Source of the DNA: Umezawaea endophytica
GTDB taxonomy: Bacteria > Actinomycetota > Actinomycetes > Mycobacteriales > Pseudonocardiaceae
DNA: 64,000 nucleotides
Assembly (NCBI RefSeq): GCF_025061645.1
Contig: NZ_JANYMP010000001.1
Span: 633,591-697,590, forward strand
Direction: 5' to 3'
The translations under genes were made by a program, and so were the position numbers. Under the pieces are notes generated by a model. That model had not been told where the DNA came from, searched no databases, and saw nothing but the letters and a program-made list of their open reading frames with translations. Below, piece after piece: positions 6,824 through 64,000 of this stretch (positions are counted from its first letter, which is position 1; each line of letters opens with the position of its first letter).

Positions 6824-6879
6824 GCCCGCGCGACCTGACCGGTGCCCCGACCGCGACCCCCGACGAGGTGACCCGATGA
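6820..6879 (+). CDS. 19-codon mini-ORF coupling the large and FAD subunit genes
   Basis: ATG 6820 overlaps the upstream TGA, and this frame ends in a TGA (6877-6879) that overlaps the ATG of the FAD-subunit gene. The peptide is MSPRDLTGAPTATPDEVTR. Its beginning resembles that of the next protein (MTPRYSAPRDLAG), so it may be a decayed duplication of that start region. It could serve only to carry ribosomes across the 52-base gap. I see no independent evidence that the peptide has a function. Confidence 0.45.
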   Translation: MSPRDLTGAPTATPDEVTR

Positions 6880-17927: not shown

Positions 17928-17934
17928 CACGGGC

Positions 17935-17975
17935 CCCGTCCGGGCCGCGTCACGGGGTGACGCGGCCCGGACGGG
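17935..17975 (+). terminator. operon terminator hairpin, 18-bp perfect stem
   Basis: The arms at 17935-17952 and 17958-17975 are exactly complementary, with a 5-base loop (CGGGG). No U-tract follows, as is usual in high-GC actinomycetes. It begins 8 bases after the CitE-like stop and marks the end of the long + strand operon. Confidence 0.88.
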
Positions 17976-18119
17976 TGCCGGTGGTGGCGACCAGGCCCTC
18001 GTCGACGGACCCCGGCCACTGGCGCGCACGGGAGCTTGTCGGTGGTGCAGACGTCCGGTCCGGCTCTTGTCGTCGCAAGCACAAGCCCTGCCCCCTTGGC
18101 ACGTCTGATGATTCCGGTC

Positions 18120-48245: not shown

Positions 48246-48272
48246 GGCGCGCCCCGGAATTCGGGGCGCGCC
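48246..48272 (-). terminator. terminator of the ebo-like operon
   Basis: Perfect 11-bp arms (48246-48256 and 48262-48272) around a GAATT loop, 13 bases beyond the last gene of the operon on the - strand. The gap up to the next gene (48125-48245) shows nothing else. Confidence 0.8.
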
Positions 48273-48284
48273 AACGGTGTCCGG

Positions 48285-49127
48285 TCAGAACCTCAGGTCG
48301 CGCAGGTACTTGTAACCCACCTCCGCCGTGACCAGCGCGTCCGCGGGCTGGTCGTTCTCCACGATGTACTCGTCGACGTGGTGGTGCCAGGTCTCGCGGA
48401 AGATCCGGCCGAAGTCGATCGTGCCCTTGCCCAGGTCGGCGAAGCTGCCGTCGGGCTTGCGGTCCTTGACGTGGTACTGCCGCACGCGCGGGAAGTTCTG
48501 CCGGAACACCTCCACCGGGTCGACCCCCGCCGTGACGACCCAGTACAGGTCGACCTCCAGGTGCACGTCCCGCCGCGACGTGCCCTTCGCGATCACGTCG
48601 ATCGGGCGCTTGCCCTCCAGCACCTGGAACTCGTGCGCGTGGTTGTGGTAGCCCATCTTCAGGCCCGCCTTGCGCAGCACCTTCGACGCCGCGTCCAGGC
48701 GTTGGGTGAACGACACCCACTCGGCGAGCGTCGGGTAGTTCACGTACGGCACGTTGACGTAGGTGTTGCGCAGCGCTTTCGCGTCCGCCACCAGCTTGTT
48801 CAGGTCGCCGTCGATGCCCACGTGCGCGGACGTCGCCGAGATGCGGTACTTGCGCAGGAGCTTCGCGAACTCCTCGGCGGTGCGGCCGTAGGTCCCGGCC
48901 AGTTCCACCTTGCGGTAGCCGATGTCCGCCAACGCCTCCAGCACGGGCGCCGGGTTGTCGCCGATGACACCGCGCAGCGTGTAGAGCTGGATGCTGATCG
49001 ACTCGCGCGGCACGCGGCGGCCGTGCCACCCGCCGCCGGTGGCGGACGCCGTGCCGGGCAGCGCCGCGACGGCCGCGGCCGCTCCCAGTGCGCCGAGAAC
49101 TGCTCTTCTGGACGGGCTTTGCGTCAT
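48285..49127 (-). CDS. Tat-exported sugar phosphate isomerase/epimerase-like TIM barrel
   Basis: A 280-residue xylose-isomerase-like TIM-barrel protein with a twin-arginine signal (SRRAVLGALGAAAAVAALPGTASA). The barrel shows SISIQLYTLRG, YRKVELAGTYGRT, MGYHNHAHEF and LEVDLYWVVTAG, the last with metal-binding acidic residues. Exported proteins of this kind accompany ThuA and 3-keto-sugar enzymes in actinomycetes. It would act outside the membrane on a sugar or cyclitol. It follows the cytosolic epimerase gene after 14 bases. Confidence 0.88.
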   Translation of the reverse strand: MTQSPSRRAVLGALGAAAAVAALPGTASATGGGWHGRRVPRESISIQLYTLRGVIGDNPAPVLEALADIGYRKVELAGTYGRTAEEFAKLLRKYRISATSAHVGIDGDLNKLVADAKALRNTYVNVPYVNYPTLAEWVSFTQRLDAASKVLRKAGLKMGYHNHAHEFQVLEGKRPIDVIAKGTSRRDVHLEVDLYWVVTAGVDPVEVFRQNFPRVRQYHVKDRKPDGSFADLGKGTIDFGRIFRETWHHHVDEYIVENDQPADALVTAEVGYKYLRDLRF

Positions 49128-49141
49128 GACGCGCTGTCCTC

Positions 49142-50152
49142 TCAGGATTCTTCTCGGGTGGAGAACGCGGCGTCGAAAGCCGCCGCGGGCGGGTCGAACA
49201 CGAGCCCCCTGATGAACTTCACGGCTTCCTCGGCGCCGCGCAGCCGGTCCATCCCGGCGTCCTCCCACTCGACGGAGATGGGTCCGGTGTAGCCGATGGC
49301 GTTGAGCGCCCGGAACGACTGCTCCCACGGGACGTCGCCGTGACCCGTCGACACGAAGTCCCAGCCGCGCCTCGGGTCCGCCCACGCGAGGTGCGAGCCG
49401 AGGCGGCCGTTTCGGCCGTCGAACCGCTTCTTCGTGTCCTTGCAGTCGACGTGGTAGATCCGGTCGGCGAAGTCGAGGATGAAGCCGACCGGGTCGAGGT
49501 CCTGCCACACGAAGTGCGACGGGTCCCAGTTGAGGCCGAAGGCCGGGCGGTTGCCCAGCGCGTCCAGGGTCTTGCGGGTCGTCCAGTAGTCGTAGGCGAT
49601 CTCGGACGGGTGCACCTCGTGGGCGAAGCGGACACCGACCTCGTCGAACACGTCGAGGATCGGGTTCCACCGGTTCGCGAAGTCGGTGTAGCCGTCGTCG
49701 ATCACGGCCTGCGACACCGGCGGGAACATCGCCACGTACTTCCAGATCTTCGACCCGGTGAAGCCGACGACGGTGTCCACGCCCAGCTTCGCCGCCGCGC
49801 GGGCCGTGTCGGCGATCTCGGCCGCGGCGCGCTTGCGCACGCCCTCCGGCTCGCCGTCGCCCCAGATGCGGGCGGGCAGGATGTTGCGGTGCCGCTCGTC
49901 GATCGGGTCGTCGCAGACGGCCTGGCCCACGAGGTGGTTGGAGATCGCGTACACCTTGAGCCCGTGGGACTCCAACTGCGCGAGCTTCGCGGGCACGTAG
50001 TCGGGCTCGGCCAGCGCCCGGTCGACCTCGAAGTGGTCACCGGAGCAGGCGATCTCCAGCCCGTCGTAGCCCCAGCCCGCTGCGAGGCGGCAGACCTCCT
50101 CGAACGGCAGGTCGGCCCACTGGCCCGTGAACAGGGTGACGGGTCGGCTCAT
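49142..50152 (-). CDS. sugar phosphate isomerase/epimerase (cytosolic TIM barrel)
   Basis: A 336-residue xylose-isomerase-like protein without a signal. Metal-site and substrate segments are [21 protein letters not shown], the [17 protein letters not shown] loop, [28 protein letters not shown], and [19 protein letters not shown]. Relatives in keto-sugar and inositol loci act as dehydratases, epimerases or isomerases. The start overlaps the EboF stop (TGATG). Confidence 0.9.
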
Positions 50153-51546
50153 CAGCGATCTCCTCTCGTGTGCACCGCGGGTGCCCGCAGTCCTTGCAGT
50201 TCCAGCAGGAAGTCCTTGACCTCGGTCGCGGCGATCCGCTCGCGCGGCTCGACGGTGGTGTCCGAGCACAGCAGGACCGGTCCGTCGGAGGGGTCGTCCG
50301 GCAGGCGGCCGTGGCTGCCCCGGACCGGGGACGGGTCGAGCGGGACCACGCTCATCGCGTACCGCAGACCCGCCTTCTTGCGCACGAGGTTCAGCCCCGC
50401 CTTGGCCTTCGCCAGCGGATCGGCCGGGTTGAAGAACAGCTCGGCCGGGTCGTAGCCCGGTTTGCGGTGGATCTCCACCCCCCGCGCGAAGTCCGGCGCG
50501 CGGTCGTCGTCGAGCCAGTAGTAGTAGGTGAACCACGCGTCGGGCTCGGCGACCGCGACGAGTTCGCCCGAGCGCTCGTGGTCGAGGCCGAACTCCGCCT
50601 GTGCCGCGCGGTCCAGGACGCGGTCCACGCCGGGCAGCGCCTCGACGACCGCCTTCGCCCTCGGCACGTCCGCCGGGTCCGCGACGTAGACGTGGGCGAT
50701 CTGGTGGTCGGCCACGGCGAAGGCCCGCGACGTCCACGGGTCGAGGTACTCCATGCCCGCCTGCGAGTAGACCTCCAGCAGGCCTTCCCCGCGCAGCGCC
50801 CGGTTCACGTCGACGGCTCGGCGCGCCTCGGTGATGCCGTACTCGGACAGGGCGACCACGGTGGCGCCCGCGCCGAGCGCGTCGGTCAGCAGCGGCGCGA
50901 TCTCCGCGTCCACGGCCTTCGCGGCGGCCACGGCCTGCGGGGAGTTCGGGCCGAACCGCTGGAGGTCGTAGTCCAGGTGCGGCACGTAGACCAGCAGCAG
51001 GTCGGGGCGCTGCTCGACGAGGATCTTGCGGGCGGCGCCGACGATCCAGCGGCTGGACGCGATGGACGCCGTCGGACCCCAGTACTGGAACAGCGGGAAC
51101 TCGCCCAGCGCGGCCACGAGCCGGTCGTGCAGCTCCGGCGGGCGGACGTAGGCGTCGGGCGACTTGCGGCCGTCGGCGTGGTAGATCGGCCGGGGCGTGA
51201 TCGTCACGTCGGTGGTCGCGCCCATCGCGTACCACCAGCAGACGTTGGCGGCGGTGTAGCCGGGGTGGGCGCGGCGCGCGGTCTCCCACAGCTTCTCCCC
51301 GCCCACCAGGCGGTTGTGCTGGCGCCACAGGTGGACCTCGCCGAGGTCGCGGAAGTACCAGCCGTTGCCGACGACCCCGTGCTCCGCCGGGGTGAGGCCG
51401 GTGAGGAACGTGGACTGGGCGCTGCACGTCACGGCGGGCAGCACCGTGCCCAGTTCCGCCTGCCAGCCCAGGCGCGAGAGGTTCGGCATGTGCGGCAGCA
51501 GCGCCGGGGTCATCCCGACGACGTCGATCACGACCAGCGGCTTCAC
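50152..51546 (-). CDS. EboF-like nucleotide pyrophosphatase/alkaline phosphatase superfamily protein
   Basis: A 464-residue alkaline-phosphatase-superfamily protein, equivalent to EboF of the ebo operon. The first metal Asp is Asp 8 ([10 protein letters not shown]), the nucleophile Thr 40 is in [13 protein letters not shown], then the [21 protein letters not shown] and [12 protein letters not shown] segments. Where nucleotide pyrophosphatases read SDHGM, this protein has SEYGI, a change I associate with this subfamily. Likely a phosphodiesterase or phosphatase acting on a pathway intermediate. GTG 51546 overlaps the EboE stop. Confidence 0.85.
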
Positions 51547-52703
51547 GGGCGCGCCCCTTCCTCGACGGTGAGGTCCCGCGCGGGGACCGCGTTCTCCAGC
51601 GCTCCCAGGTGTTCGCGGGCCCAGCGCAGTTCGGCGGCGATGCCGCGGACGAGCGCGGTGTCGTCCTGGCCGACGGCGCCGGGGAGCACGCTCCACGTGT
51701 ACGTCTCGACCTCCACGTGCGGCAGCGGACCGTCGGCGGCCAGCGCCCCCACGGCTTCGCGCAGCACGTCCGTGGTCGCCGACAGGGGCGCGGCGGGCCG
51801 GGCGTGCAGCGGCACGTGGAAGTGCACGCGCCACGGGTCCCGGCCGGGCAGCTCGTGGTGGGCCTGCGGCAGGTCGTCGGAGGCGAACACCACTCCCCCG
51901 CGCAGTTCGCGGACCTGGTGCAGGTAGCGGGGTTCGGTGAACGCCGCCAGCGCGCGGCGGCTCTCCGGCGAGCCGGGCCGGGTCACCTCCAGCGCCGCGG
52001 AGGCCTGCACCTTGACCACGCGCAGCCCGGCCGCGCGGATCTCGGCGACGGCGGCGGCCGGGTCGGCGAAGGACACCGCGAGGTGGCAGGTGTCCAGGCA
52101 GATCCCGACGTGCTCGGGGTCGACGCGCCCGGCGAGCCGGGTCACGGTGTCGTGCACGGTGTCCAGGACGCAGCCCGGTTCGGGTTCGACGGCCAGCGCG
52201 ATCGGCCTGCCGGTCCACGCGGCCTGCGCGCGCAGCACCCGCGCCATCTCCTCGAGGGCGGCGAACGCCAGGGTGTCGTCCGACCGGGTCCACGGGGTGC
52301 GCCACCCCAGCGGCAGCGTGGAGATGGAGCCGCTCGCGGCGTCGTCGGGCAGCAGGTCGCCGAGCACGGTCGCGCAGTCGGTGGTGTAGCTCAGCCGTTC
52401 CGGGTCGGTCCAGCGCGGCTGGTACACCGAGTGCTTCACCACGGCGTCGTGGAAACCGCCGTAGGGGAAGGCGTTGAGGGTCCGGACCTCCAGGCCGCGC
52501 GCGTCGAGTTCGGCGCGCAGCCGCCGCCGGGACACCTCGTCCTCGGCGAGGCCGCGGGCCACATCCGCGGACAGCCACAGGCCGAGGCCCAGGTGGTCGA
52601 CGCCGAGCAGTCGGCGCACGGGCAGGGCGAACCGGTCGAGTTGGGCGAGGACGCCGCGCAGGTCCTCGGCGGGGTGCACGTTGGTGCAGTAGGACAGGTC
52701 CAT
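51543..52703 (-). CDS. eboE: metabolite traffic protein EboE-like TIM barrel
   Basis: A 386-residue protein that closely follows the EboE pattern: [13 protein letters not shown] start, [61 protein letters not shown], then LAVEPEPGC and [12 protein letters not shown]. The fold is a xylose-isomerase-like barrel with plausible metal ligands. In cyanobacteria the ebo genes are needed to move a scytonemin precursor to the periplasm; the chemical step of EboE is not known. It overlaps EboB upstream and EboF downstream. Confidence 0.92.
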
Positions 52704-53569
52704 CAGCGGTCACCGCCGCCGCGCAGCACGGAGTTGCCGGAGAACGTGTCCGAGGACGCGGTGAAGCCGGGCAGGTCGTCCAGCAGGAGGCGTCCGCTCT
52801 GCCCGTAGAACTCCACCGGGTTGCGCCACAGCACGTCGTCCACATCGGACTCGCTGAAACCGGCCTCCAGCATCGCCAGTCCGGTCTTGTGGGTCTTGAG
52901 CGGGTCGGACCGGCCCCAGTCGGCGGCGGAGTTCACCAGCACCCGCTCGGTGCCGTACTCCTTGAGGAGCGCGACCATCCGGTGCTCGTCCATCTTGGTG
53001 TCCGGGTAGATGGAGAAGCCCATCCACGCGCCGGAGTCGGCGACCGCGCGCACGGTCGTCTCGTTGAGGTGGTCCACGGCGACCCGTTCCACCGGAAGGC
53101 CGGACTCCTTGACCAGGTCGAGGGTTCGGCGCGTGCCCGCCGCCTTGTCGCGGTGCGGGGTGTGCACCAGCGCGGGCAGGTCGTGCTCGACCGCGAGCTG
53201 GAGCTGGCGGGCGAACGCCTCGTCCTCCTCCGGGGTCATCGAGTCGAAGCCGATCTCGCCGACCGCGACGACGCCGTCCTTCTCCAGGTAGCGCGGCAGC
53301 ACGTCCAGCACGGGCGTGCAGCGCGGATCGTTGGCCTCCTTGGGGTTCAGCGCGATGGTGCAGTGGTGGCGGATGCCGAACTGGGCGGCGCGGAAGCGCT
53401 CCCACCCGATGAGCGCGTCGAAGTAGTCGGTGAACGAGCCGACCGAGGTGCGGGGCTGGCCCAGCCAGAACGCCGGTTCCACCAGTGCGCGCACCCCGGC
53501 CGCGCGCATGGCCTCGTAGTCGTCGGTCGTGCGGGACGTCATGTGGACGTGCGGGTCGAAGATGCGCAT
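52703..53569 (-). CDS. eboB: EboB-like TatD family metal hydrolase
   Basis: A 288-residue TatD-type amidohydrolase of the EboB kind. Metal residues: FDPHVHM (His 7 and His 9), Glu in VGEIGFD, His in LVHTPHRDK, His in VDHLNETT, and Asp in SAADWGRSD. The MTSRTTDDYEAMRAAGV start is diagnostic of this group. ATG 53569 is chosen; GTG 53575, which overlaps the previous stop, is possible. A hydrolytic role on the trafficked metabolite is inferred. Confidence 0.9.
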   Translation of the reverse strand: MRIFDPHVHMTSRTTDDYEAMRAAGVRALVEPAFWLGQPRTSVGSFTDYFDALIGWERFRAAQFGIRHHCTIALNPKEANDPRCTPVLDVLPRYLEKDGVVAVGEIGFDSMTPEEDEAFARQLQLAVEHDLPALVHTPHRDKAAGTRRTLDLVKESGLPVERVAVDHLNETTVRAVADSGAWMGFSIYPDTKMDEHRMVALLKEYGTERVLVNSAADWGRSDPLKTHKTGLAMLEAGFSESDVDDVLWRNPVEFYGQSGRLLLDDLPGFTASSDTFSGNSVLRGGGDR

Positions 53570-53571
53570 CC

Positions 53572-55002
53572 TCACTCACCCTTCCCGAGCAGTCGTGCGG
53601 CGTCGGCGGGCACGTCACGGCCCGCGGCGGTGCGTTCGGCGGCGTAGTCGGCGACCATGCGCAGCAGCTCGTCGTCGGTCCGCCGCTCCAGCCCCGCCAC
53701 GGCGGCCAGCGGCACGCCGGTGAACAGGCACTTGAGGACGCCGTGCCGCCAGCCGTGGTCGTCGAGGTGGTCGGCGGCGAACGGGCCGAGCGCGGCGGCG
53801 ACGAGGCGGACGTCGTTGGTGCGCAAGGCGTCCCGGACGACCTCCAGTCCCGCGGCCGACGCCCGGTCGCCGACCAGGGCGAGGCCGCGCAGCACGCCGC
53901 GCTTCTCCGCGTCGTCGCCGTGCCGGTAGAGCGCGAGCAGTTCGGCGGACAGGGCGTCGTCGTCCAGCATGGTGGCGAGCGCGCCGAGGAGTTCGGCGCG
54001 GGCCGCGTCGTCGACGCTGCCGTGCACCAGGCCCTGCGGGTCGTCGGGCCGGTTGAGGCCGCGGCCGACCCGACGGCCCACCGCGGGGAACAGCCGTCCC
54101 ACGACGGCGGGGTCGCGGCGCACCGCGCGCTGGGCATCGGCCAGCCACGGGTGTCGGGGCTTGGCGGGCTCGTCCGGCATCGCCGCCTTGAGCGCCTCCA
54201 CCGCCCGGCGGGCCACGTCGGGGGCGGCGTGGCTGTGCCGGGGCAGTTCGACGGCGGCGACGCCGACGTAGTTGACGGCGGCGAGCGCGGCGAGGGTGGC
54301 ACCCAGGTCCAGGTCGCCCTCGCCGAACTCCAGGTGCTCGTGCACGCCCGGCAGCATGTCGTCGAGCTGCACGTTCACCAGCAGCCCACCCGCGCGGCGC
54401 ACGCACGTGGCGGCGTCGTCGGGTTCCACGGCCACGCAGTGCCCCACGTCGAGGGTGACGCCGAACAGCGACGGCGAACCCAGTTCCTCGCGCAGCCGCA
54501 GCGCCTGGGTGAGGTGCTGCACGAACATCCCCGGCTCGGGTTCGAGGCCGAGGGTGACGCCGAGCGGTTCGGCGCCCTCCAGCACAGCGGCGACGCCGGA
54601 GCGCATCCGGTTCCAGGCCTCGTCAGCGGGCACGTCGGCCGGTTTGATGCCGGACCAGAACGACACGCAGTCGGCGTTCAGCTCGGCCGCGATCCGCACC
54701 GCGCGGAGCAGGAAGTCCACCCGGACCTCCTGGGCCTCGCTGACCAGGGTCGGGTGGTGCTTGCGGTGCGGGTCGAGCAGGAACCGGGCGCCGGTCTCCA
54801 CGACGCAGCGCAGGCCGAGCCGGTCGAGCTTCGCGGCGACGTGCGACACCCTGGCGGGCAGGTCGTCGGCGAACGGGTCGAGGTGGTGGTGGTCCAGGGT
54901 CAGCGCCACGGACGTGAAGCCGAGCCCGGCGATGATGTCGAGCGCGTCGTCGAGGCGGTGGTTGGAGAACCCGTTGGTGCCGTAACCGAGGTGGAAGGTC
55001 AC
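53572..55002 (-). CDS. TIM-barrel/EboA fusion protein
   Basis: A 476-residue protein in two parts. Residues 1 to about 270 form a sugar isomerase-like TIM barrel (VTFHLGYGTNGFSNHRL, FTSVALTLDHHHLDPF, LGLEPEPGM, VTLDVGHCVAV, GVAAVELPRHSHA). Residues from about 295 match the helical EboA domain (ELLALYRHGDDAEKRGVLRGL, DALRTNDVRLVAAALGPFAA, WRHGVLKCLFTGVPLAAVAGLE). In cyanobacteria EboA is a stand-alone helical protein. The fusion may couple an isomerase step to the trafficking helix. GTG 55002 overlaps the prenyltransferase stop. Confidence 0.88.
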   Translation of the reverse strand: MTFHLGYGTNGFSNHRLDDALDIIAGLGFTSVALTLDHHHLDPFADDLPARVSHVAAKLDRLGLRCVVETGARFLLDPHRKHHPTLVSEAQEVRVDFLLRAVRIAAELNADCVSFWSGIKPADVPADEAWNRMRSGVAAVLEGAEPLGVTLGLEPEPGMFVQHLTQALRLREELGSPSLFGVTLDVGHCVAVEPDDAATCVRRAGGLLVNVQLDDMLPGVHEHLEFGEGDLDLGATLAALAAVNYVGVAAVELPRHSHAAPDVARRAVEALKAAMPDEPAKPRHPWLADAQRAVRRDPAVVGRLFPAVGRRVGRGLNRPDDPQGLVHGSVDDAARAELLGALATMLDDDALSAELLALYRHGDDAEKRGVLRGLALVGDRASAAGLEVVRDALRTNDVRLVAAALGPFAADHLDDHGWRHGVLKCLFTGVPLAAVAGLERRTDDELLRMVADYAAERTAAGRDVPADAARLLGKGE

Positions 55003-55853
55003 GTCGGGCTCACCTTCCGGCCCAGCCGCCGGGCGAGCGGCAGTGCCAGAGCGACGGCGGCGGCCCCGACGACCGACCCGGCCCGTGCGGCGAGCGCCGA
55101 CTGGAGCGGGACCATGCCGTGGATGCCCGCCTTCGTCGCGGTCCGCACGGACGCCGCGTCGGGCGTCCGCAGCGCGTCGAGCTGCGCGCGGCCGACGGTG
55201 GCGGCGTAGCCGGTGGCCGCGACGAGCCCGGCCAGGCGGTGCCGCCAGCAGGCCGACGGCCCGACGACGGCGGCGAACGCGCTGAGCGCCGTGCCGCCGA
55301 GCACCGCGCGGGCGACGGGCGCGGACGTGCCGTGCACCTCGCCGCGCGACAGCGCCGTCACGCCGAGGGTGTGCCCCGCCACGGCCGCGGCGGCGGGCAG
55401 CGCCCTCCGCGCGTCCAGTGCGCCCGCGCCGAGCAGGACGTCCAGCGCCCGGCACGCGGCCATCCCGACCGGACCGGCCGGGGTGGACTTCAGCACGGTG
55501 TCGTAGGACCACACGGCCAGCGCGAGCGGCACGGCGACGCGCAGCGAGTCCCGTCCACCCGCCCAGGCCGCGATCCCGAGACCGGTGGCGCTCAGCCCGG
55601 CCGCGACGGCCAGCGCCCGGTTCGGCGAGATCCGCCCCGACGGCACCGGCCGCTCCGGCCGCTCGACCGCGTCGAGGTCCCGGTCGGCCCAGTCGTTGAG
55701 GGCCATGCCCGACCAGTACAGCGCCACCGACGCGAGCGGCAGCAGCGCACGACGGCCGCGCAGCGGGTTCCCGGACGCCGCGGCCCCGGCGACGGTGTCA
55801 CCGAGGACGGTGAGCGCGGCGGGCGCGCGCACCAGCTCCACGTACGCCCTCAC
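54999..55853 (-). CDS. EboC/SCO3242-family UbiA prenyltransferase
   Basis: A 284-residue membrane prenyltransferase of the UbiA fold. The Asp-rich motif NDWADRDLD (residues 53-61) and the second site around YDTVLKSTPAGP are present, with eight or so hydrophobic helices. It starts at GTG 55853 with GGAGG eight bases upstream; 115 bases with no gene separate it from the cyclase. It would attach a polyprenyl group to a polar acceptor, perhaps a cyclitol or sugar phosphate. Family named after Streptomyces coelicolor SCO3242 and equivalent to EboC. Confidence 0.9.
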   Translation of the reverse strand: MRAYVELVRAPAALTVLGDTVAGAAASGNPLRGRRALLPLASVALYWSGMALNDWADRDLDAVERPERPVPSGRISPNRALAVAAGLSATGLGIAAWAGGRDSLRVAVPLALAVWSYDTVLKSTPAGPVGMAACRALDVLLGAGALDARRALPAAAAVAGHTLGVTALSRGEVHGTSAPVARAVLGGTALSAFAAVVGPSACWRHRLAGLVAATGYAATVGRAQLDALRTPDAASVRTATKAGIHGMVPLQSALAARAGSVVGAAAVALALPLARRLGRKVSPT

Positions 55854-55968
55854 GCCGTCCACCTCCTCGACCCGCGCACTCGCACGACCGCGAACCGACC
55901 CGGAACGGGCAGGTCCGCGCACCCGACACCCTGCACGCCGCTCTGGGCCGGCGCGCACACGACGTCCC

Positions 55969-57138
55969 TCATGCCCCGTACCTCCCCAGCTCACGGGCCC
56001 ACGCGTGCAGGTCGCGGGTCTGCTCGGCGAAGCGGTGCTCGTCGTGGCCGAGGGGGTCCTTGAAGAAGAACGCCAGCGCTCCCAGCGCGCCGGACTGGCC
56101 GTCGGCGTGCGCGGCGGCCACGAGGCGGGCCAGGTCGAGCACGAGCGGCGCGGCCAGTGAGGAGTCCAGGCCGGTCCAGGTGAACTGGAGGCTCATCCGC
56201 GCGCCGAGGAACCCCTCGAACGACACGTGGTCCCACGCGGTCTTCTGCTCGCCGAGGTCGGGGACGTTGTCGATGTGCAGCGGCGCGGTGACCGGCTCCC
56301 CCAGCAGCGCGGCCAGGCCGCGGGCCTTGGACTCCAGCTTGCTGGCCGCGTGCTCGGGGTCCTCCAGCGTCGCCCCGTCGCCGCCGCCGAGCAGGTTGGT
56401 GCCCGACCAGGAGCGCACGCGAAGGCCGCGGGCGGTGAACATGGGCGCGAGGACGGTCCGCAGCAGCGTCTCGCCGGTCTTGCCATCGCGCCCGGCGTAG
56501 GGCAGGCCGAGGTCCACGGCGAGCTGGTGCAGCGCGGGCAGCGCGACACCGGTGGACGGGGTGAAGTCGACGAACGGGCAGCCCGCGCGCAGCGCCGCGT
56601 ACGCGGTCAGCGAGCTGGGCGGCAGGACCGCGCGCTCCGGGTCGGCCAGCGCGGCCTCCAGCAGCGCGAGGTCGTCGTGCTCCGGCAGGTGCGGCACGGG
56701 TGGTTCGGTGGAGGACACGTTGACCACGACGACCCGCGCCAGGTCGTGCCGCTCCCGGAAGGACACCAGGTCGGCCGTGAGTCGTTGGGCGGCGGTGGCC
56801 TGCGCGCCGCGGTGGGTGGCCGGGTGGTAGCCCTCGCGGACCTCCGCGTCGACCGCGGCCAGCCCGTCGACCAGCGACGGCAGCAGGTGGTGCGGCAGGA
56901 CGCCCGCGTGCGCGAGCTGCTCGGCGCGCTTCTCCAGGCAGGTGGTCACGACGTCGTGGCCGCCGACGACCAGGTCGTCCCACGACGGCAGGTCGACCTC
57001 GGCCAGTTCCGGTCTCGCGGTGACGCACCCGGTGGGCGGCGCGAGTCCCGCCCGCAAGGCGAGCAGTCCGCTCACGGCGGTGGTCGCCACCGATCCGCGC
57101 GCCCCGATCAACCACAGCCCGGTCCGCTGGTCCGCCAT
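55969..57138 (-). CDS. myo-inositol-1-phosphate synthase-like protein
   Basis: A 389-residue protein of the inositol-3-phosphate synthase family: NAD-binding LIGARGSVATTAVSG at the start, VVVNVSSTEPP, PSSLTAYAALRAGCPFVDFTPS, GRDGKTGETLLRTVLAPMF, and the SGTNLLGGGDGATLEDPE motif equivalent to NxLGNxDG. It has low similarity to housekeeping synthases and is probably a specialised sugar-phosphate cyclase or reductase. It heads the ebo-like gene run in the position where other bacteria have the EboD dehydroquinate-synthase-like cyclase. AAGGGCGG precedes ATG 57138. Confidence 0.87.
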   Translation of the reverse strand: MADQRTGLWLIGARGSVATTAVSGLLALRAGLAPPTGCVTARPELAEVDLPSWDDLVVGGHDVVTTCLEKRAEQLAHAGVLPHHLLPSLVDGLAAVDAEVREGYHPATHRGAQATAAQRLTADLVSFRERHDLARVVVVNVSSTEPPVPHLPEHDDLALLEAALADPERAVLPPSSLTAYAALRAGCPFVDFTPSTGVALPALHQLAVDLGLPYAGRDGKTGETLLRTVLAPMFTARGLRVRSWSGTNLLGGGDGATLEDPEHAASKLESKARGLAALLGEPVTAPLHIDNVPDLGEQKTAWDHVSFEGFLGARMSLQFTWTGLDSSLAAPLVLDLARLVAAAHADGQSGALGALAFFFKDPLGHDEHRFAEQTRDLHAWARELGRYGA

Positions 57139-57226: not shown

Positions 57227-60200
57227 CTACTTCAAGCGCCGCGACGTGCCGTCGAGCAGGGCGATCACCGCGTCGGTGTCGCGGACGAGCACGGCGCGCA
57301 CGCCGGTGTCCGGAACACCGACGGCCAGGACGCGGAACGCCCGCAGCTCCTTGACCGCCTTCGTGTCGTTGCCGTCCGCCTCCGCCTTGCGCGCCTTGGC
57401 GAGCTGCTTGGTCAGCTTGTCGTAGGACGCCTTCGGCAGCCGGTTGGTCGCCTTGAACCGGTCGAGGAGCTGGGACACGTCCCGCAGCGACGTGGTGACC
57501 GCGAACGGCACCGTCCTGGTGGTGGCGTTGCCCGCGACGTCGGTCGCGACGACCTTCAACTCGTGCACGCCGAGCGCCAGCTCGTGCAGCGGCAGGGCCG
57601 CGCCCGAGGTCAGCGCCCGCTGGCCGACGGTCGCGGTGACCGCGCGGACGCCGGAGGTGGCGTCACCGGCCTCCCACGACACGACCACGTCGGTCGCGTC
57701 GCCGTACACCCGGCCGTTGGCCACGCCCGCGACGATCAGCGTGGGCGAGGTGCCGTCGATCTCGATCGTCACCGCGCGGTCGGCCTCGGTGTTGCCCGCG
57801 ACGTCGACCGACCGGTGCAGCAGGGTGTGGGTGCCGTCGCCGGACACCGCCACCGGGCGGAGGTAGGGCGTCCACGCCCCGCCGTCCAGGCTCCACTCGG
57901 TGCGCGCCACCCCGGAGGCCGGGTCGGCGGCGGTCAGCGCCACCGACACGGCGCCGCCGTGCCAGCCGCTCTCGCCGGGTGCGGCGAACGTGGCGGTGGT
58001 GACGGGGGCGGTGCCGTCGATCTTGACGTCCAGCGCCTTGACCTGCTCGACGTTGCCCGAGGTGTCGGTCGAGCGGTACTCGACCTTGTGGGCGCCGTCG
58101 GAGGCGACCACGACCGGCTCGGTGTAGGCGGTCCAGTCACCGCCGTCGAGCCGGTACTCGGTGCGCGCCACACCACCCGCGTCGGTGGCGACCAGCTCCA
58201 CCGAGACCGGGGCCGCCGTGTACCAACCGGATCCGCCGGGGGGCGTGCCGGTCTTGGCGGTGGTCACCGGCGCCACCACGTCGAGGTCCTTGACGCGCAC
58301 GTTGCGGAACCGCACGTCGTCGGAGTCGCCGTGGTTCTGGAGGCCGATGAAGCCCCGCGTCAGGTCGCGGGCCGGATCGGTGCTGGTGTAGTCGTTGATC
58401 TTCACCCCGTTCAGCAGCACCTGGATGCGCTGGTCGGTGACGAGGATCTCGTAGGCGTTCCACTGACCCGCCGGCTTGAGCGCCGCGTCGCGGGCGGCGA
58501 TGTCGGCCGCCTTGAACGTGTAGATCGCACCGGTGGTGCGGTCCACGGCGTCGGTCGGGTCGATCTGGATCTCGTAGCCCTGGTTCACCGCGACCCACGG
58601 GTCGTCGCCGGGGTCGGGGAACCCGATGAAGACACCGGAGTTGTCGTCACCGGCGAGCTTCCAGTCGAGCTTGAGGCTGTACGAGCCGAGCTCGCCCTCG
58701 TGCCACAGCAGGCCCATGCCGCCCTCGGAGCGGATGGAGCAGTCGTTCTGGTGGACGAAGCGACCGGGACCGGCCTGGTTCCACGCCTCCAGGCTGCCGG
58801 GCGTGCCGTCGTAGAGGCTGCGGTAGCCCTCCTCGGGCGTGACCGGCGTGCACGCGGCGGGCTGGTCGGTGCTGAAGGTCAGCGAGTCCACGTCGAACAG
58901 CGCGCCCGAGCCGCCCTTGAACACGAGGTACATCTCGTGCGTGCCACCGGGATCGGTGATCGGGGTCGGGTCGAGGTCGACGTAGTTGTCCCAGCCGCCG
59001 GTGTTGGCGACGTACAGCGACTGCACGAGCGGGCCGTCCGGCGCGTCGAGCCGGACCTCCAGCGTGCCGCCGGACCCGCCGGACGAGACGCGGTACCCGA
59101 TCCCGGTCACCCCGGCGAGGTTCACCGGGCTGAACTTGATCCAGTCGCCGTTCTCGATCTCGCCGACGCGCTTCTTGCCCTCCGCGGTGTCGCGTTCCAG
59201 CGCCCGCGCGCCCTGCGCGCCGGTGTAGAACTCGGCCTGCTTGTGCTTGGGCTGGAGCACCGCCTCGTCGGAGCCGGTCAGCGCCGGGGCACCGGGCGCG
59301 CCGTTGTCGGTGTAGGTGGCGTTGATGACGCCGAAGACGTTGGCGTCCGCGCCGTGACCGCCGTCGGCCGGGGTCGGGATGGTGCCCTGGCAGCCCGTGG
59401 CCCTGCTGAGCGGGTGGCCGTGGCTGTCGTGGCCGAGGATGTACTCCACGACCACCTTGGAGCAGTCGACCGGCTGGTCCTCGGGGTCGACGACGGTCAC
59501 CGAGAACGGCACCTGGTCGCCGAAGCTGAACACCGAGCCGTCGAGCGGGGTGTTGAGGGTGACCACGGGGGCGGTGTTGCCGACGTTGATCACCACGCTG
59601 GCCGAGCCGGTCAGCCCGGTCGGGTCGGTCACCGACAGCTTCGCGCTGTACCGGCCGACGGTGTCGTAGGTGTGGCTCACCGGTCCGGCCTGCGTGGAGT
59701 CGGTGGTGCCGTCACCGTCGAAGTCCCACGCCCAGGTCAGCTCGGGACCGTCCTCGTCGGTGGTGCCCGTCGGGTCGAAGTTCACCGTCAGCGGCGCCGG
59801 GCCCGACGTCTTGTCGGCCGCCAGCTTCGCCACGGGCGTGTGGTTGCCCTGGGTGTAGTCGATCCGGTAGACCGCCGAGTCGGCCGCCCCGCCGAAGTAG
59901 CCGCTGCCGTAGTCGAGGACGTAGAGCGAGCCGTCCGGCCCGAACTCCAGGTTCATCGGCCTGGTCAGGGTCATCGAGTCGAAGAACGGCGTGATCGCGC
60001 CGCGTTCGCCGTTCGCGCCGACGTCGATGGTCTTGATCCAGCCGCGGTCCCACTCGTACGCGAAGTTCTTGTTGTCGAAGAACTTCGGGAACTTCGTCAC
60101 CTGGTTCAGGTTCGGGTCGTAGTTGTAGGTCGGGCCGCCCATGGGCGACTCGCCGCCGGTGCCGAACTCCGGCACGGAACCGCCGTCGTAGGGGATCCAC

Positions 60201-62065
60201 GCGGCCTTGGCGGGCGGCAGGTCGACCAGACCGGTGTTGTGCGGGCTGTCGTTGCGCGGGTTGGCGCAGTCGAACTTGGCGCCGGACGTGCCGGTGGCGA
60301 AGTCGTAGTCGTTGAACGCCAGGTTGTCCCCGACGCACAGCGGCCAGCCGTAGTTGCCCGGCTCCTTGATCAGGTTGAACTCGACGGTCCCGCCGGGACC
60401 GCGGTTCGGGTTGGCCGACCCGGCGTCGGGACCGTAGTCGCCGAGGTGGATCCAGCCGGTCTTCTTGTCCACGGCGAACCGGAACGGGTTGCGGAAGCCC
60501 ATCGCGTAGATCTCGGGACGGGTCTTCTCGGTGCCCGGCGCGAACAGGTTGCCCGCGGGCACCGTGTACGAGCCGTCGGCGGCGACCTTGATGCGGACGA
60601 TCTTGCCGCGCAGGTCGTTGGTGTTGGCCGAGGAGCGGCGGGCGTCGAACGCGGGGTTGCGGTCGGCGCGCTCGTCGATCGGCGAGTAGCCGTCCGAGGC
60701 GAACGGGTTGGTGTCGTCCCCGGTGGACAGCAGCAGGTTGCCCTGCGCGTCGAAGTCGATCTCCCCGCCCGCGTGGCAGCACAGGCCGCGGTCGGCCGGG
60801 ATCTGGATGATCTTCTGCTCGCTCGCCAGGCTCAGGGTGCCGTCGTCGGACAGCGTGAACCGGGAGAGCTGGTTGTGGCCCTTGAACCGCTCGAAGTCCG
60901 CCGCGGTGCCGTTCTCCGGCGCGTCACCCGCGGGGGTGTCCAGCGGTGGCGCGTAGTAGAGGTAGACCCACTTGTTGGTGGCGAAGTCCGCGTCGACCGC
61001 GATGCCCTGGAGGCCGTCCTCGTCGTGGTTGTACACGGCGATCTGGCCCGCGAGCGACGTCGTCGCCTCCGGCGTGGTCAGCCACACGCGACCGTCGCGG
61101 GAGGTGTGCAACACCCGGCGGTCGGGCAGGACGGCGAGCGCGATCGGCTCACCGGTCTTCTCCTCGCCCAGCGCCAGCGTGATCTGGTCGAAGTCCGCGT
61201 CGGTCGGCGGCTCGTTCGGCGTCGTGCCGCCCGGCTCGCATCCGGCGGCCGCGGAGCCCGCGGCGTACTTGATGCCGCCCAGCAGGTGCTGCCGGAACGC
61301 CGCGTCCGCGTAGGACTCCTTGGTGTGGCCCATCCCCGTGTACCAGGAACGGCCCGAACCCTGCGTGTGGCACCACACGATGGGGTGGTCGCCAGCGGGG
61401 TCGGTGGGCGTGTAGCTGGTCTCGTCCAGCGCCGCCAGCACGTGCACGTCGGTGCGCGGGTTGCTCTGGTAGCTGTACCACTCGTCGGTGCGCGTCCACT
61501 TGTCCGGCAGGTGCGCCGTGGAGGCGTGGTCGTGGTCCTCGACGAGGACGTCGGCCTGCTGGATGGCCGGGTGGGACTTGAAGTACGAGCCCACCAGGTC
61601 GCCGTACCAGGGCCACGAGTACTCGGTGTCCGCGGCGGCGTGCACGCCCGCGTAGCCGCCGCCGTCCTGGATGAACCGCTCGAAGGCGCCCTGCTGGTCG
61701 TTGTTCAGGACGTCACCGGTCGTCGACAGCCACACGACCGCGTCGAAGCGGTCGAGGTTGGCGTCGGTGAACGCCCCCGCGTCCTCGGTGGCCTCCACGT
61801 GGAAGTCGTTGGCCGCGCCCAGGGCCTGGATGGCGGCGATCCCGTCCGGGATGGAGTCGTGCCGGAAGCCCGCGGTCTTGGAGAACACCAGGACGTGCTC
61901 GCCGTCCGGGTGGGCCGCGGCGGGCGCGGCGGCGCCGACGAGACCGGCGCCCACGCCGGTCAACAGGGCCAGGGCGGCGACCCCGAGGCGCGCCGCCGGT
62001 GGACGTAGGTTCGGGGGTGGTGTCCGCAACTGCGGGTCGTGCTCCACGCTTCGCTTACCACGCAC
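57227..62065 (-). CDS. secreted multidomain ThuA/sugar dehydrogenase/PKD/CBM/DUF1080 protein
   Basis: A 1612-residue exported protein starting at GTG 62065 (GAGGAGAG upstream), with signal ARLGVAALALLTGVGAGLVG to about residue 51. Domains: ThuA-like glutamine-amidotransferase fold (57-270, VLVFSKTAGFRHDSI, GYAGVHAAADTEYSWPW), glucose/sorbosone-type PQQ sugar dehydrogenase propeller (290-737, EKTGEPIALAVLPDRR, GFRNPFRFAVD), PKD (745-828), a CBM6-like region (about 955-1075), DUF1080/3-keto-disaccharide hydrolase (about 1080-1260, RSLYDGTPGSLEAWNQ), Ig-like repeats with EYRLDGGDWTAY (1265-1500) and a helical tail (1526-1612). It probably oxidises and cleaves a glycan outside the cell. Confidence 0.93.
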   Translation of the reverse strand: MRGKRSVEHDPQLRTPPPNLRPPAARLGVAALALLTGVGAGLVGAAAPAAAHPDGEHVLVFSKTAGFRHDSIPDGIAAIQALGAANDFHVEATEDAGAFTDANLDRFDAVVWLSTTGDVLNNDQQGAFERFIQDGGGYAGVHAAADTEYSWPWYGDLVGSYFKSHPAIQQADVLVEDHDHASTAHLPDKWTRTDEWYSYQSNPRTDVHVLAALDETSYTPTDPAGDHPIVWCHTQGSGRSWYTGMGHTKESYADAAFRQHLLGGIKYAAGSAAAGCEPGGTTPNEPPTDADFDQITLALGEEKTGEPIALAVLPDRRVLHTSRDGRVWLTTPEATTSLAGQIAVYNHDEDGLQGIAVDADFATNKWVYLYYAPPLDTPAGDAPENGTAADFERFKGHNQLSRFTLSDDGTLSLASEQKIIQIPADRGLCCHAGGEIDFDAQGNLLLSTGDDTNPFASDGYSPIDERADRNPAFDARRSSANTNDLRGKIVRIKVAADGSYTVPAGNLFAPGTEKTRPEIYAMGFRNPFRFAVDKKTGWIHLGDYGPDAGSANPNRGPGGTVEFNLIKEPGNYGWPLCVGDNLAFNDYDFATGTSGAKFDCANPRNDSPHNTGLVDLPPAKAAWIPYDGGSVPEFGTGGESPMGGPTYNYDPNLNQVTKFPKFFDNKNFAYEWDRGWIKTIDVGANGERGAITPFFDSMTLTRPMNLEFGPDGSLYVLDYGSGYFGGAADSAVYRIDYTQGNHTPVAKLAADKTSGPAPLTVNFDPTGTTDEDGPELTWAWDFDGDGTTDSTQAGPVSHTYDTVGRYSAKLSVTDPTGLTGSASVVINVGNTAPVVTLNTPLDGSVFSFGDQVPFSVTVVDPEDQPVDCSKVVVEYILGHDSHGHPLSRATGCQGTIPTPADGGHGADANVFGVINATYTDNGAPGAPALTGSDEAVLQPKHKQAEFYTGAQGARALERDTAEGKKRVGEIENGDWIKFSPVNLAGVTGIGYRVSSGGSGGTLEVRLDAPDGPLVQSLYVANTGGWDNYVDLDPTPITDPGGTHEMYLVFKGGSGALFDVDSLTFSTDQPAACTPVTPEEGYRSLYDGTPGSLEAWNQAGPGRFVHQNDCSIRSEGGMGLLWHEGELGSYSLKLDWKLAGDDNSGVFIGFPDPGDDPWVAVNQGYEIQIDPTDAVDRTTGAIYTFKAADIAARDAALKPAGQWNAYEILVTDQRIQVLLNGVKINDYTSTDPARDLTRGFIGLQNHGDSDDVRFRNVRVKDLDVVAPVTTAKTGTPPGGSGWYTAAPVSVELVATDAGGVARTEYRLDGGDWTAYTEPVVVASDGAHKVEYRSTDTSGNVEQVKALDVKIDGTAPVTTATFAAPGESGWHGGAVSVALTAADPASGVARTEWSLDGGAWTPYLRPVAVSGDGTHTLLHRSVDVAGNTEADRAVTIEIDGTSPTLIVAGVANGRVYGDATDVVVSWEAGDATSGVRAVTATVGQRALTSGAALPLHELALGVHELKVVATDVAGNATTRTVPFAVTTSLRDVSQLLDRFKATNRLPKASYDKLTKQLAKARKAEADGNDTKAVKELRAFRVLAVGVPDTGVRAVLVRDTDAVIALLDGTSRRLK

Positions 62066-62133
62066 GGGTATTCTCTCCTCGTTCTCACCGAACTGGGAAC
62101 CGCGGAAGGCTGGGAAAACCCTCCTCTCGTGTC

Positions 62134-62171
62134 GCGGCACCGACCCGGCCCGTCCGCCGGGTCGGTGCCGC
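62134..62171 (-). terminator. terminator after the Gfo/Idh/MocA gene
   Basis: Perfect 16-bp arms (62134-62149 and 62156-62171) around a 6-base loop, 30 bases past the oxidoreductase stop on the - strand and before the ThuA gene, so that gene probably has its own promoter in the remaining 68 bases. Confidence 0.85.
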
Positions 62172-62200
62172 ACTTGCTCCGGACCGTTCTCGGGGTGCCG

Positions 62201-63346
62201 TCAGGCGGGCACCGGCTGCCAGTTCGCCGCCACCGCGCTGTCCTCCACCGCCGCGAGCACCCGCTGGACCTGGAGCCCGTCGGCGAAGCTCGGCGCCGGG
62301 TCGGTCCCGGCGGCGATGGCGCCCACCAGGTCGACGACCTCGTGGACGAACGTGTGCTCGTAGCCGAGCAGGTGGCCGGGCGGCCACCACGCGCCGACGT
62401 ACGGGTGGTCCCCCTCGGTGACCAGGACCCGGCGGAACCCGGCCTCGGAGTCGGGGGAGTCCCCGTCGAAGAACTGGAGTTCGTTCATCGACTCGAAGTC
62501 GAAGGCCAGGCTGCCGCGCGAGCCGTTGACCTCCAGGCGCATCGCGTTCTTGCGGCCCAGCGCGTAGCGGGTGGCCTCGAAGCTGCCGACCGCGCCGCCG
62601 GTGAAGCGGGCCAGGAACAGGGCCGCGTCGTCCACCGTGACCTGGCCCGTGCCGCCCGCGCCGTCCGGGCGGGACGTCGTGAACGTCTCGGTCAGCGCGG
62701 ACACGCCGGTGATCGTGAGGCCGGTAACGAACTGCGCGGCGTCCACGATGTGCGCGCCGAGGTCGCCCAGCGCGCCGGAGCCCGCCTTCTCCCGGTCCAT
62801 CCGCCACGTCATCGGCGAAGCCGGGTCGGACAGCCAGTCCTGGAGGTACACGGCGCGGACGTGCCGCACCTCGCCGAGCCGCCCGTCCGCGACGAGCTTG
62901 CGGGCGAACGCCAGCGCGGGCACCCGCCGGTAGTTGAACGCCACCATCGACCGCACACCGCGGGCGGCGGCGGCCACCGCGGCGGCGGCCATCTTCTCCG
63001 CCTCCGCGACCGAGTTGGCCAGCGGCTTCTCGCACAGCACGTGCTTGCCCGCCTCCAGCGCCGCCACCGCGATGTCGCAGTGCGAGTCGCCGGGCGTGCA
63101 GATGTCGACCAGGTGCACGTCGTCGCGCTGGACCAGCGCGGTCCAGTCGGTCTCGACCGCGGCCCAGCCGTACTTGTCCGCCGCTTCCCTCGTGCGGGTC
63201 GCGTCGCGGCCGCCCAGCACCGAGAGCCTCGGCACCAGCGGCAGGTCGAAGAAGCGGTGCGCGTTGCGCCAGGCCTGGGAGTGCACCGCGCCCATGAACG
63301 CGTGCCCCACCATCCCGACGCCGATCTCCCCGCGGTTGTCGTTCAT
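62201..63346 (-). CDS. Gfo/Idh/MocA family sugar oxidoreductase
   Basis: A 381-residue NAD(P)-dependent oxidoreductase. The N-terminal Rossmann motif is GVGMVGHAFMGAVHS, and CEKPLA is the catalytic Lys motif. TWRMDREKAGSGALGDLGAHIVD is typical of sugar and inositol dehydrogenases that work with a ThuA or TIM-barrel partner. AAGGGCC lies seven bases before ATG 63346. It would reduce or oxidise a keto-sugar or inositol released by the secreted protein. Confidence 0.92.
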   Translation of the reverse strand: MNDNRGEIGVGMVGHAFMGAVHSQAWRNAHRFFDLPLVPRLSVLGGRDATRTREAADKYGWAAVETDWTALVQRDDVHLVDICTPGDSHCDIAVAALEAGKHVLCEKPLANSVAEAEKMAAAAVAAAARGVRSMVAFNYRRVPALAFARKLVADGRLGEVRHVRAVYLQDWLSDPASPMTWRMDREKAGSGALGDLGAHIVDAAQFVTGLTITGVSALTETFTTSRPDGAGGTGQVTVDDAALFLARFTGGAVGSFEATRYALGRKNAMRLEVNGSRGSLAFDFESMNELQFFDGDSPDSEAGFRRVLVTEGDHPYVGAWWPPGHLLGYEHTFVHEVVDLVGAIAAGTDPAPSFADGLQVQRVLAAVEDSAVAANWQPVPA

Positions 63347-63390
63347 CCGTCTAGGCCCTTCGTCGCTCCTGCGGTTCCACCTCGCCACGG

Positions 63391-63424
63391 GGTCCCGGCG
63401 CCGCCGCGCTGCGGCGCCGGGACC
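63391..63424 (-). terminator. terminator after the sugar-binding protein
   Basis: Perfect 14-bp arms (63391-63404 and 63411-63424) with a CGCGCT loop, 6 bases after the binding-protein stop on the - strand. The remaining gap holds the start region of the oxidoreductase. Confidence 0.85.
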
Positions 63425-63429
63425 ACCCG

Positions 63430-64000
63430 TCAGGAGTCGAACCCGACGTCGAGGTAGGAGTCCACGTTCTCCTTGCTCACCACGGCGGAGTAGGTCGTGA
63501 TGAGCGCCGGGATCTCGTGCTCCGCGAGGTCGCCGATGCCCTTGGCCTGGCCGAGCAGGCGGGCCAGCGCGATGGCGGAGGAGGCCATGGACGGGCTGTA
63601 GAGCACCGTCGCCTTGACCACGCCGCTGTCGGCCTTGATCAGGTCCATCATGTTCCGCGACCCGGCGCCGCCGACCATGATGAAGTCCTTGCGGCCCGCG
63701 CCGTCGATCGCCGCGAGGACGCCGATGCCCTGGTCGTCGTCGTGGTTCCACAGCGCGTCGAGCTTGCTCGCGCCCTGGAGCAGGTTCGCGGTCTGCTGCT
63801 CGCCGGACTCCGGGGTGAACTGGGCGGACACCCGCGGGCCGACGGAGAAGCCCGCGCGGGCCAGCGCGTCCTTGAAGCCCTTGCTGCGTTCCTGGGTCAA
63901 CGGTAGCGAGTCGATGCCCGCGACCTCGCCGATGATCGGGGCGGAGATGTTCTTCGCCTTCATCTGGGAGGCGATGTAGTTGCCCGCGTTGACACCCATG
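63430..64000 (-). CDS. sugar ABC transporter substrate-binding protein (N-terminus missing)
   Basis: The C-terminal 189 residues of a periplasmic-binding-protein-type-1 (RbsB-like) sugar binder. The start is beyond the right edge. Visible family features are GVNAGNYIASQMKAK, IGEVAGIDSLPLTQERSKGF, LDALWNHDDDQGIGVLAAI, and the hinge YSPSMASSAIALARLLG. It would bring a sugar or cyclitol to an importer whose permease and ATPase must lie outside the window, to the right. Confidence 0.9.
   Translation of the reverse strand, partial: MGVNAGNYIASQMKAKNISAPIIGEVAGIDSLPLTQERSKGFKDALARAGFSVGPRVSAQFTPESGEQQTANLLQGASKLDALWNHDDDQGIGVLAAIDGAGRKDFIMVGGAGSRNMMDLIKADSGVVKATVLYSPSMASSAIALARLLGQAKGIGDLAEHEIPALITTYSAVVSKENVDSYLDVGFDS

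Follow-up and report, generated by a model that had tools for sequence, protein, structure and literature searches.

A candidate inositol-type variant of the Ebo metabolite-traffic operon in Umezawaea endophytica and other actinobacteria

The DNA analyzed here, a 64,000-nucleotide stretch of contig NZ_JANYMP010000001.1 of Umezawaea endophytica (the window), contains an operon, all of it on the - strand, that combines counterparts of EboA, EboB, EboC, EboE and EboF of the ebo metabolite-traffic operon with an archaeal-type myo-inositol-phosphate synthase (MIPS) and a xylose-isomerase-like TIM barrel (XI). The comparisons described below indicate that MIPS and XI together occupy the slot of the missing cyclase, EboD. 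The genes concerned are the following.

55969..57138, - strand: archaeal-type MIPS, the cyclase of the variant, 389 amino acids (PF07994/PF01658)
54999..55853, - strand: UbiA-family prenyltransferase, counterpart of EboC, SCO3242 family (NF045897; the start is our choice)
53572..55002, - strand: XI-EboA fusion, whole protein
54181..55002, - strand: XI, N-terminal part of the fusion protein and putative partner of MIPS (PF01261)
53572..54180, - strand: EboA domain, C-terminal part of the fusion (NF035938; border approximate)
52703..53569, - strand: EboB, TatD-like metallo-hydrolase (PF01026; alternative GTG start at 53575)
51543..52703, - strand: EboE, TIM barrel (NF035939)
50152..51546, - strand: EboF, nucleotide pyrophosphatase/phosphodiesterase-like (PF01663)

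UbiA overlaps XI-EboA by four bases, XI-EboA lies two bases from EboB (or overlaps it by four if EboB starts at the GTG), EboB and EboE meet in a TGATG, and EboE and EboF again overlap by four bases. The gap between MIPS and UbiA is 115 bases in the window, but their frames overlap by four bases in 8 of 14 relatives (including L266, L267 and L285), and we therefore count MIPS as part of the operon. The spacer itself (55854-55968) holds a 40-codon open reading frame (ORF) that overlaps both neighbours, sharing an ATGA between its start and the stop of MIPS and a GTGA between its stop and the start of UbiA; as a conserved gene it was rejected, since no such ORF occurs in the 14 relatives compared. 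A draw across the phylum supplied 20 other EboE loci, and 16 of them repeat the window's gene order, which argues that it is not a chance arrangement.

Family profiles place the EboA domain (NF035938, 157 bits; cut-off 50) and EboE (NF035939, 428 bits; cut-off 250) well above their thresholds, and EboF (PF01663, 205 bits) and its counterpart in the EboD-type locus L029 are 51% identical. EboB matches the Pfam TatD family weakly (PF01026, 55 bits), as is likewise the case in PMC5133447, yet it shares 43% identity with the TatD-like gene of L029, and EboB proteins of both cyclase types fall in one tree. The prenyltransferase belongs to the SCO3242 family (NF045897, 374 bits; cut-off 260) and scores below the cut-off for EboC (NF035940, 151 bits; cut-off 250). 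Both Pfam domains of MIPS exceed the gathering score (PF07994, 175 bits; PF01658, 105 bits), and its identification as an ordinary mycothiol INO1 was rejected at 25 bits with TIGR03450, for which the cut-off is 638. Compared with the six-gene ebo operon, EboA, EboB, EboE and EboF are present, and nothing at the level of EboD occurs in the window or in the genome: with an EboD profile, true EboD proteins reach 541-578 bits while other dehydroquinate-synthase (DHQS)-like genes stay at or below 197, and the genome's two DHQS-like genes score 197 and 147 bits, so that a copy hidden elsewhere in the genome was rejected. An earlier note on this DNA had described a tightly joined set of EboC, EboA, EboB, EboE and EboF homologues without EboD. 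The junctions, the absence of EboD and four of the homologues were confirmed; the EboC assignment has to be narrowed to a UbiA protein of the SCO3242 family. Its proposal that an inositol-phosphate-synthase-like enzyme replaces EboD holds as a swap, but MIPS does not come alone, the XI barrel being exchanged with it.

How consistently MIPS accompanies EboE was assessed in draws of genomes. Among 396 actinobacterial genomes of the phylum draw, 19 contain EboE, 18 of them above cut-off. In the 20 fetched EboE stretches besides the window, MIPS adjoins EboE in 16 and EboD does so in one (L029); the three with neither cyclase are L026 (a second copy in genome G128), L039 (an orphan EboE of the window's own genome) and L044 (decayed). 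Strong MIPS matches (≥260 bits) were found in 17 of the 396 genomes, every one an EboE carrier; of the two carriers left over, G381 is the EboD genome and G279 is decayed. Distant MIPS matches only (≤223 bits) were found in 61 genomes, G279 included. A second draw, of 200 genomes from 46 genera of the window's family, contains EboE in 103 genomes (101 above cut-off) spread over 28 genera, and strong MIPS (≥405 bits) in 102, all within those 103, giving an association of 102/103 versus 0/97 (Fisher p 1.2e-57, for rows that are not phylogenetically independent). In three genera (g258, g262 and g269) a listed genome without EboE is also without MIPS and its congeners carry both, and eight genomes of one further genus (g278) have only distant MIPS (210-236 bits) and no EboE. 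An apparent separation of MIPS onto another contig in G717 was withdrawn, as the contig breaks inside UbiA (L297, L305), and those in G744, G753 and G658 may be contig breaks as well; we therefore count as separated only the three genomes of one genus (G790, G806 and G832) in which MIPS is retained about 27 kb from EboE (L323, L324).

The EboD profile matched none of the 200 family genomes at E 1e-60, a null result made meaningful by its separation of true EboD from DHQS-like genes. On the other side, EboE was above cut-off in 6 of 251 Chloroflexota genomes, and all six loci (five new ones and L114) are EboD-type. The best 80 EboE loci of a contig scan contain EboD in 76 (in one as a 59-bit piece on a 3.6-kb contig) and MIPS in none; for the other four, EboD lies elsewhere in the genome in three and was not found in one, which is cut by a contig end. 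Because these 80 were selected by similarity to an alignment headed by Deinococcus EboE, their zero carries that selection bias, from which the draws of the phylum, the family and Chloroflexota are free. Searches for MIPS-type Ebo loci in other phyla gave a MIPS match at 1e-60 in 4 of 144 Acidobacteriota genomes, with no Ebo gene in any of the four stretches, and none in 148 Chloroflexota genomes, a set without a positive control. EboD and MIPS were not found together in any locus examined. A neighbourhood survey for mutual exclusivity of the two had been set beforehand as the test of the replacement, and in these loci they do exclude each other; neither of the two contrary observations named with it, an eboD elsewhere in the genome or frequent co-occurrence of both cyclases, was made.

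XI is distributed like MIPS. It is present in 48 of 49 loci that hold MIPS and EboE, in none of 12 EboD loci and in none of the best 80 EboD-side loci, and it is retained in MIPS-less copies of the MIPS-type side (L026, L271 and L297). In 24 of 55 loci with an XI match it is fused to EboA, and in the others it is a separate gene. MIPS and an XI orthologue (43-48% identity) also occur together in clusters without EboE (L105, L106, L303 and L304), and for this reason the two look like one cyclitol-making unit. The exchange would thus be of EboD for MIPS plus XI rather than for MIPS alone, a point that is new here. The EboE-less clusters have contents of their own: L105 and L106, on Roseomonas and Hymenobacter plasmids, encode MIPS, the XI orthologue, Gfo/Idh, YcaO and a PIG-L deacetylase, and L303 and L304, from two g278 genomes, encode MIPS, the XI orthologue and Gfo/Idh. 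By alignment, XI retains Glu, Asp/His, His and Glu at the positions that we take to be the metal site expected of this superfamily. A predicted model of the XI-EboA fusion (pLDDT 91, pTM 0.60) has an all-helical EboA part and an XI fold whose best structural matches are ketose 3-epimerases; IolI ranks 30th. For XI and EboE alike, structural matches indicate the sugar isomerase/epimerase superfamily and nothing narrower, and an EboE profile had no match among the sequences of the Protein Data Bank (PDB).

In trees of EboE and of EboF, the actinobacterial MIPS-type rows and the cyclase-less L026 form one group each (100/100), and in the EboB tree they are grouped at 98/99; in the EboB and UbiA trees L026 is labelled MIPS-type though its locus is without MIPS. 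The EboD-type actinobacterium G381 groups with the EboD types. A plasmid locus of Gemmatirosa (L103) has MIPS and XI together with EboB and EboF that are nested among EboD types, its EboF grouping with four EboD types from proteobacteria (100/97) and its EboB falling within the EboD types (99/94). Because both proteins are so nested, the cyclase types appear to have changed at least twice, in a direction that the unrooted EboE, EboF and EboB trees do not give; the Gemmatirosa evidence is one Gemmatimonadota record. EboE of L103 lies on the EboD side (100/100) with an unresolved base and, taken alone, would be compatible with a single change, and the UbiA tree places Gemmatirosa at 36/84, without resolution. 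Long-branch warnings apply to L103 in the UbiA tree and to an 11-row group of L103 and haloarchaeal rows in the EboB tree. In the MIPS tree, 24 actinobacterial rows form one group (100/97), haloarchaeal MIPS come next with moderate support (88/91) and Gemmatirosa stands apart; of 18 further actinobacterial MIPS-family rows this tree kept 4, the remainder having matches that were too short or absent, canonical mycothiol-type INO1 rows dropped out through excessive divergence, and g278 is not represented.

Clues to the chemistry come mainly from MIPS. Its nearest solved relative is the MIPS of Archaeoglobus fulgidus (1u1i; 213 bits, full-length), with which K267, K271, K299 and K360 of the window protein align in register (K274, K278, K306 and K367 of 1u1i). 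All four are invariant in 17 MIPS sequences, and by alignment 3qvw and 3qvx are K to A relative to 1u1i at two of the four positions, for which we assume a catalytic role in archaeal MIPS. UbiA proteins of both cyclase types have in common the motif NDxxDxxxDxxxxPxRxxPxG and a Y(D/N)...M...R stretch (16 aligned rows; the N-terminal part is missing from L102, whose row starts late). In the flanks of the cyclase-less copy L026 are an inositol-monophosphatase-family gene (194 bits) and flavin adenine dinucleotide (FAD) amine-oxidase-like, P450 and Gfo/Idh genes. Within L026, the segments 6477-7763 and 13912-18740 hold the P450, FAD oxidase-like and inositol-monophosphatase-family genes and a gamma-glutamyltranspeptidase gene.

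Outside the core of the operon, the window carries further genes:

49142..50152, - strand: XI2, sugar-isomerase-like barrel overlapping EboF by one base (PF01261, 132 bits)
48285..49127, - strand: XI3, barrel with an N-terminus judged Tat-like by eye (PF01261, 40 bits; IolE NCBIfam, 59 bits, below cut-off)
57227..62173, - strand: large flanking protein with ThuA, GSDH, PKD, CBM6, 3-keto-disaccharide hydrolase, OmpL47 and FIMAH domains (start uncertain)
62201..63751, - strand: flanking Gfo/Idh/MocA oxidoreductase, levoglucosan-dehydrogenase/IolG-like (NF052479, 350 bits, below the cut-off of 650; start uncertain)

EboF and XI2 meet in a TGATG, and XI2 and XI3 are 14 bases apart. Across 49 MIPS-type loci, GSDH was found in 36, an XI3-like barrel in 31, KDH in 30, ThuA and XI2 in 29 each and Gfo/Idh in 15. 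XI2, XI3 and ThuA are missing from many of these loci and were rejected as core Ebo parts; the two extra sugar-isomerase-like barrels that the earlier note counted with the operon are thus real but belong, with ThuA, to a flanking set (29-36 of the 49). The note also took the nearby ThuA protein to be secreted. On contig C16 of the same genome, the orphan EboE (L039:8883-10121; 382 bits) lies between ThuA, GSDH and a large ThuA-GSDH protein that resembles the window protein at 57227-62173. In some Streptomyces plasmids, a MIPS-type operon follows a ScyD/ScyE family gene and has a multicopper oxidase gene downstream; in others it is adjacent to nonribosomal peptide synthetase genes or to type II polyketide synthase (PKS) genes. 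By sequence search, ScyE is present in 1 of the 49 MIPS-type loci. In scytonemin synthesis Ebo is required for the monomer to reach the periplasm, the proposed site of ScyE action, and these Streptomyces sites therefore resemble the scytonemin arrangement with another cyclase. Two of the Streptomyces plasmids, L329 and L330, share type II PKS genes; L329 has the full MIPS-type operon, and L330 has eboE alone (8971-10149) within the stretch viewed. In Salipiger, a pyrroloquinoline quinone (PQQ) dehydrogenase gene follows EboD-type genes.

Taken as a whole, the locus is best explained, with a probability that we put at roughly 0.55, as an inositol-type variant of the Ebo metabolite-traffic operon. 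The variant is widespread and accounts for most of the sampled actinobacterial Ebo carriers, with the EboD slot given over to an archaeal-type MIPS and a ketose-epimerase-like XI and with UbiA, EboA, EboB, EboE and EboF kept. The parts of this reading differ in strength. That the cyclase has been swapped is nearly certain from the comparisons of sequence, and MIPS and XI probably make an inositol-type cyclitol. The balance tips slightly toward prenylation of that cyclitol by UbiA, and service of the prenylated product in export falls just short of an even chance. In the mechanism that we envisage, MIPS would cyclise a sugar phosphate, in the simplest case glucose 6-phosphate, into an inositol phosphate; XI, and perhaps EboE and EboB, would remodel or dephosphorylate it; and UbiA would attach an isoprenoid. 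In line with the proposal of Klicki et al. for EboD-type Ebo, the resulting amphiphile could act as a carrier or cofactor that takes a client metabolite outside; exported redox enzymes (GSDH/ThuA, ScyE-like, multicopper oxidase) might finish it there. A bolder extension, which we regard as tentative and rather unlikely, would make Ebo a chassis with an exchangeable cyclitol head, C7 (EboD) or C6 inositol (MIPS plus XI), swapped at least twice and reaching archaea, in which each prenylated cyclitol carries natural products of a client pathway (aromatic polyketides, indole-phenols, peptides) across the membrane and EboE is a client-side part that can stand alone in a client cluster.

Several observations weigh against the inositol-type reading or parts of it. 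Within the family draw, G846 has a 40-bit EboE fragment without MIPS in a genome that is 83% complete, and the search for EboD in Gemmatirosa, which found none, was confined to the plasmid. ThuA and GSDH are not confined to MIPS-type loci, occurring in 6 and 5 of the 80 EboD-side loci (Gfo/Idh occurs in 2 of them, XI3 and ScyE in one apiece). As a family, PF00459 is broad, and the MIPS in the other Ebo copy of G128 could serve L026 in trans. The available part of PMC9235831 describes farnesylation of quinoline acids in vitro by an EboC-type UbiA and leaves cyclitols unmentioned. A distant relative of MIPS, 6k96, is a five-membered-cyclitol-phosphate synthase, and other rings are thus possible. 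Importer-like and regulatory genes flank some operons (ATPase in 9, permease in 8, binding protein in 6 and ROK in 5 of 52 loci, in a scan used for neighbours only, with an incomplete ORF caller that missed most UbiA genes).

The last two points bear directly on other explanations. MIPS and XI might make a non-inositol cyclitol (of another ring size, or a deoxy or keto form) that is still prenylated; the existence of 6k96, the position of the MIPS clade apart from the four other placeable actinobacterial MIPS rows and the second MIPS-family gene that the genome retains on contig C35 would all fit, but among solved structures the nearest relative is a MIPS whose length is similar and with whose lysines the four line up, and the cyclase-less L026 has an inositol-monophosphatase-family gene, so that we consider this unlikely. 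A catabolic locus, importing and breaking down an unusual sugar or cyclitol with the Ebo genes degrading or recycling it, would equally suit the importer parts, periplasmic binding protein and ROK regulator beside 5-9 of 52 operons, the ThuA/GSDH/3-keto-hydrolase protein, XI2, XI3 and Gfo/Idh in the flanks, and the PQQ sugar dehydrogenase and substrate-binding protein beside the Natronococcus cluster. Yet the cyclase and the prenyltransferase come from biosynthetic families, some of the 49 loci lack the flanking set, and the Streptomyces plasmid operons stand without that importer in other, mostly secondary-metabolite surroundings; we judge a catabolic role quite improbable. Finally, actinobacteria require inositol, and EboD could simply have been lost beside an unrelated MIPS that supplies inositol for mycothiol or phospholipids. 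This is very hard to reconcile with the separate MIPS-family gene on C35, with strong matches to the window MIPS that occur only with EboE (102 of 102 in the 200-genome draw), in one genus even at 27 kb, and with Gemmatirosa, which again pairs MIPS and XI with Ebo genes.

The inositol-type reading builds on earlier proposals. Yurchenko et al. 2016 (PMC5133447), in the part available, described the ebo operon (eboA-F), proposed an isoprenoid-cyclitol product, gave sedoheptulose 7-phosphate as a guess for the EboD substrate and mentioned an XI-EboA fusion in Actinobacteria as data not shown; because the prenylated cyclitol was already proposed there, only the inositol variant is new. The accessible portion of Klicki et al. 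2018 (PMC6282210) describes scytonemin precursor traffic by Ebo and cites a nematode link of the cluster in Pseudomonas. The word inositol is absent from the main text of PMC5133447, of Klicki et al. and of the Ubi-297 paper, and no description of MIPS in an Ebo operon was found in the open-licence PMC literature (preprints lay outside the search). The window operon shares with ebo the EboA domain, EboB, a UbiA prenyltransferase, EboE and EboF in one tight operon and the predicted union of a sugar-derived cyclitol with an isoprenoid; it differs in having MIPS and XI instead of EboD and a UbiA below the EboC cut-off, and in many loci of the window's family EboA is fused to XI. In Streptomyces coelicolor, the part of PMC3610822 at hand lists SCO3242 as a transferase and SCO3243 as a myo-inositol phosphate synthase, both genes of the calcium-dependent-antibiotic cluster, with no Ebo link in that part. 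SCO3242 gives its name to NF045897, the UbiA family that the window protein matches. Haloarchaeal plasmid clusters (L102, L104 and L325; Halobaculum, Halocatena and Natronococcus) likewise have TatD, XI, UbiA, a second XI, MIPS and nucleotide pyrophosphatase/phosphodiesterase (NPP) genes, but none is annotated EboA or eboE, and the EboE model gives the two L102 barrels 22 and 20 bits.

The MIPS variant hints at the type of molecule made by the poorly understood Ebo system. Its first step comes from an enzyme family of known chemistry, which would open the head group to direct testing and, by analogy, the EboD product as well, and many actinomycete hosts are available for such study. It also links SCO3242 and SCO3243, listed in the portion of PMC3610822 consulted as antibiotic-cluster genes, to a possible export function. 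Classification of the locus as a defence system was rejected (no PADLOC match at 1e-5 for 8 proteins). Downstream of the operon, at 44603-47704 on the - strand, lies a large regulator that by eye appears to be of SARP/AfsR type.

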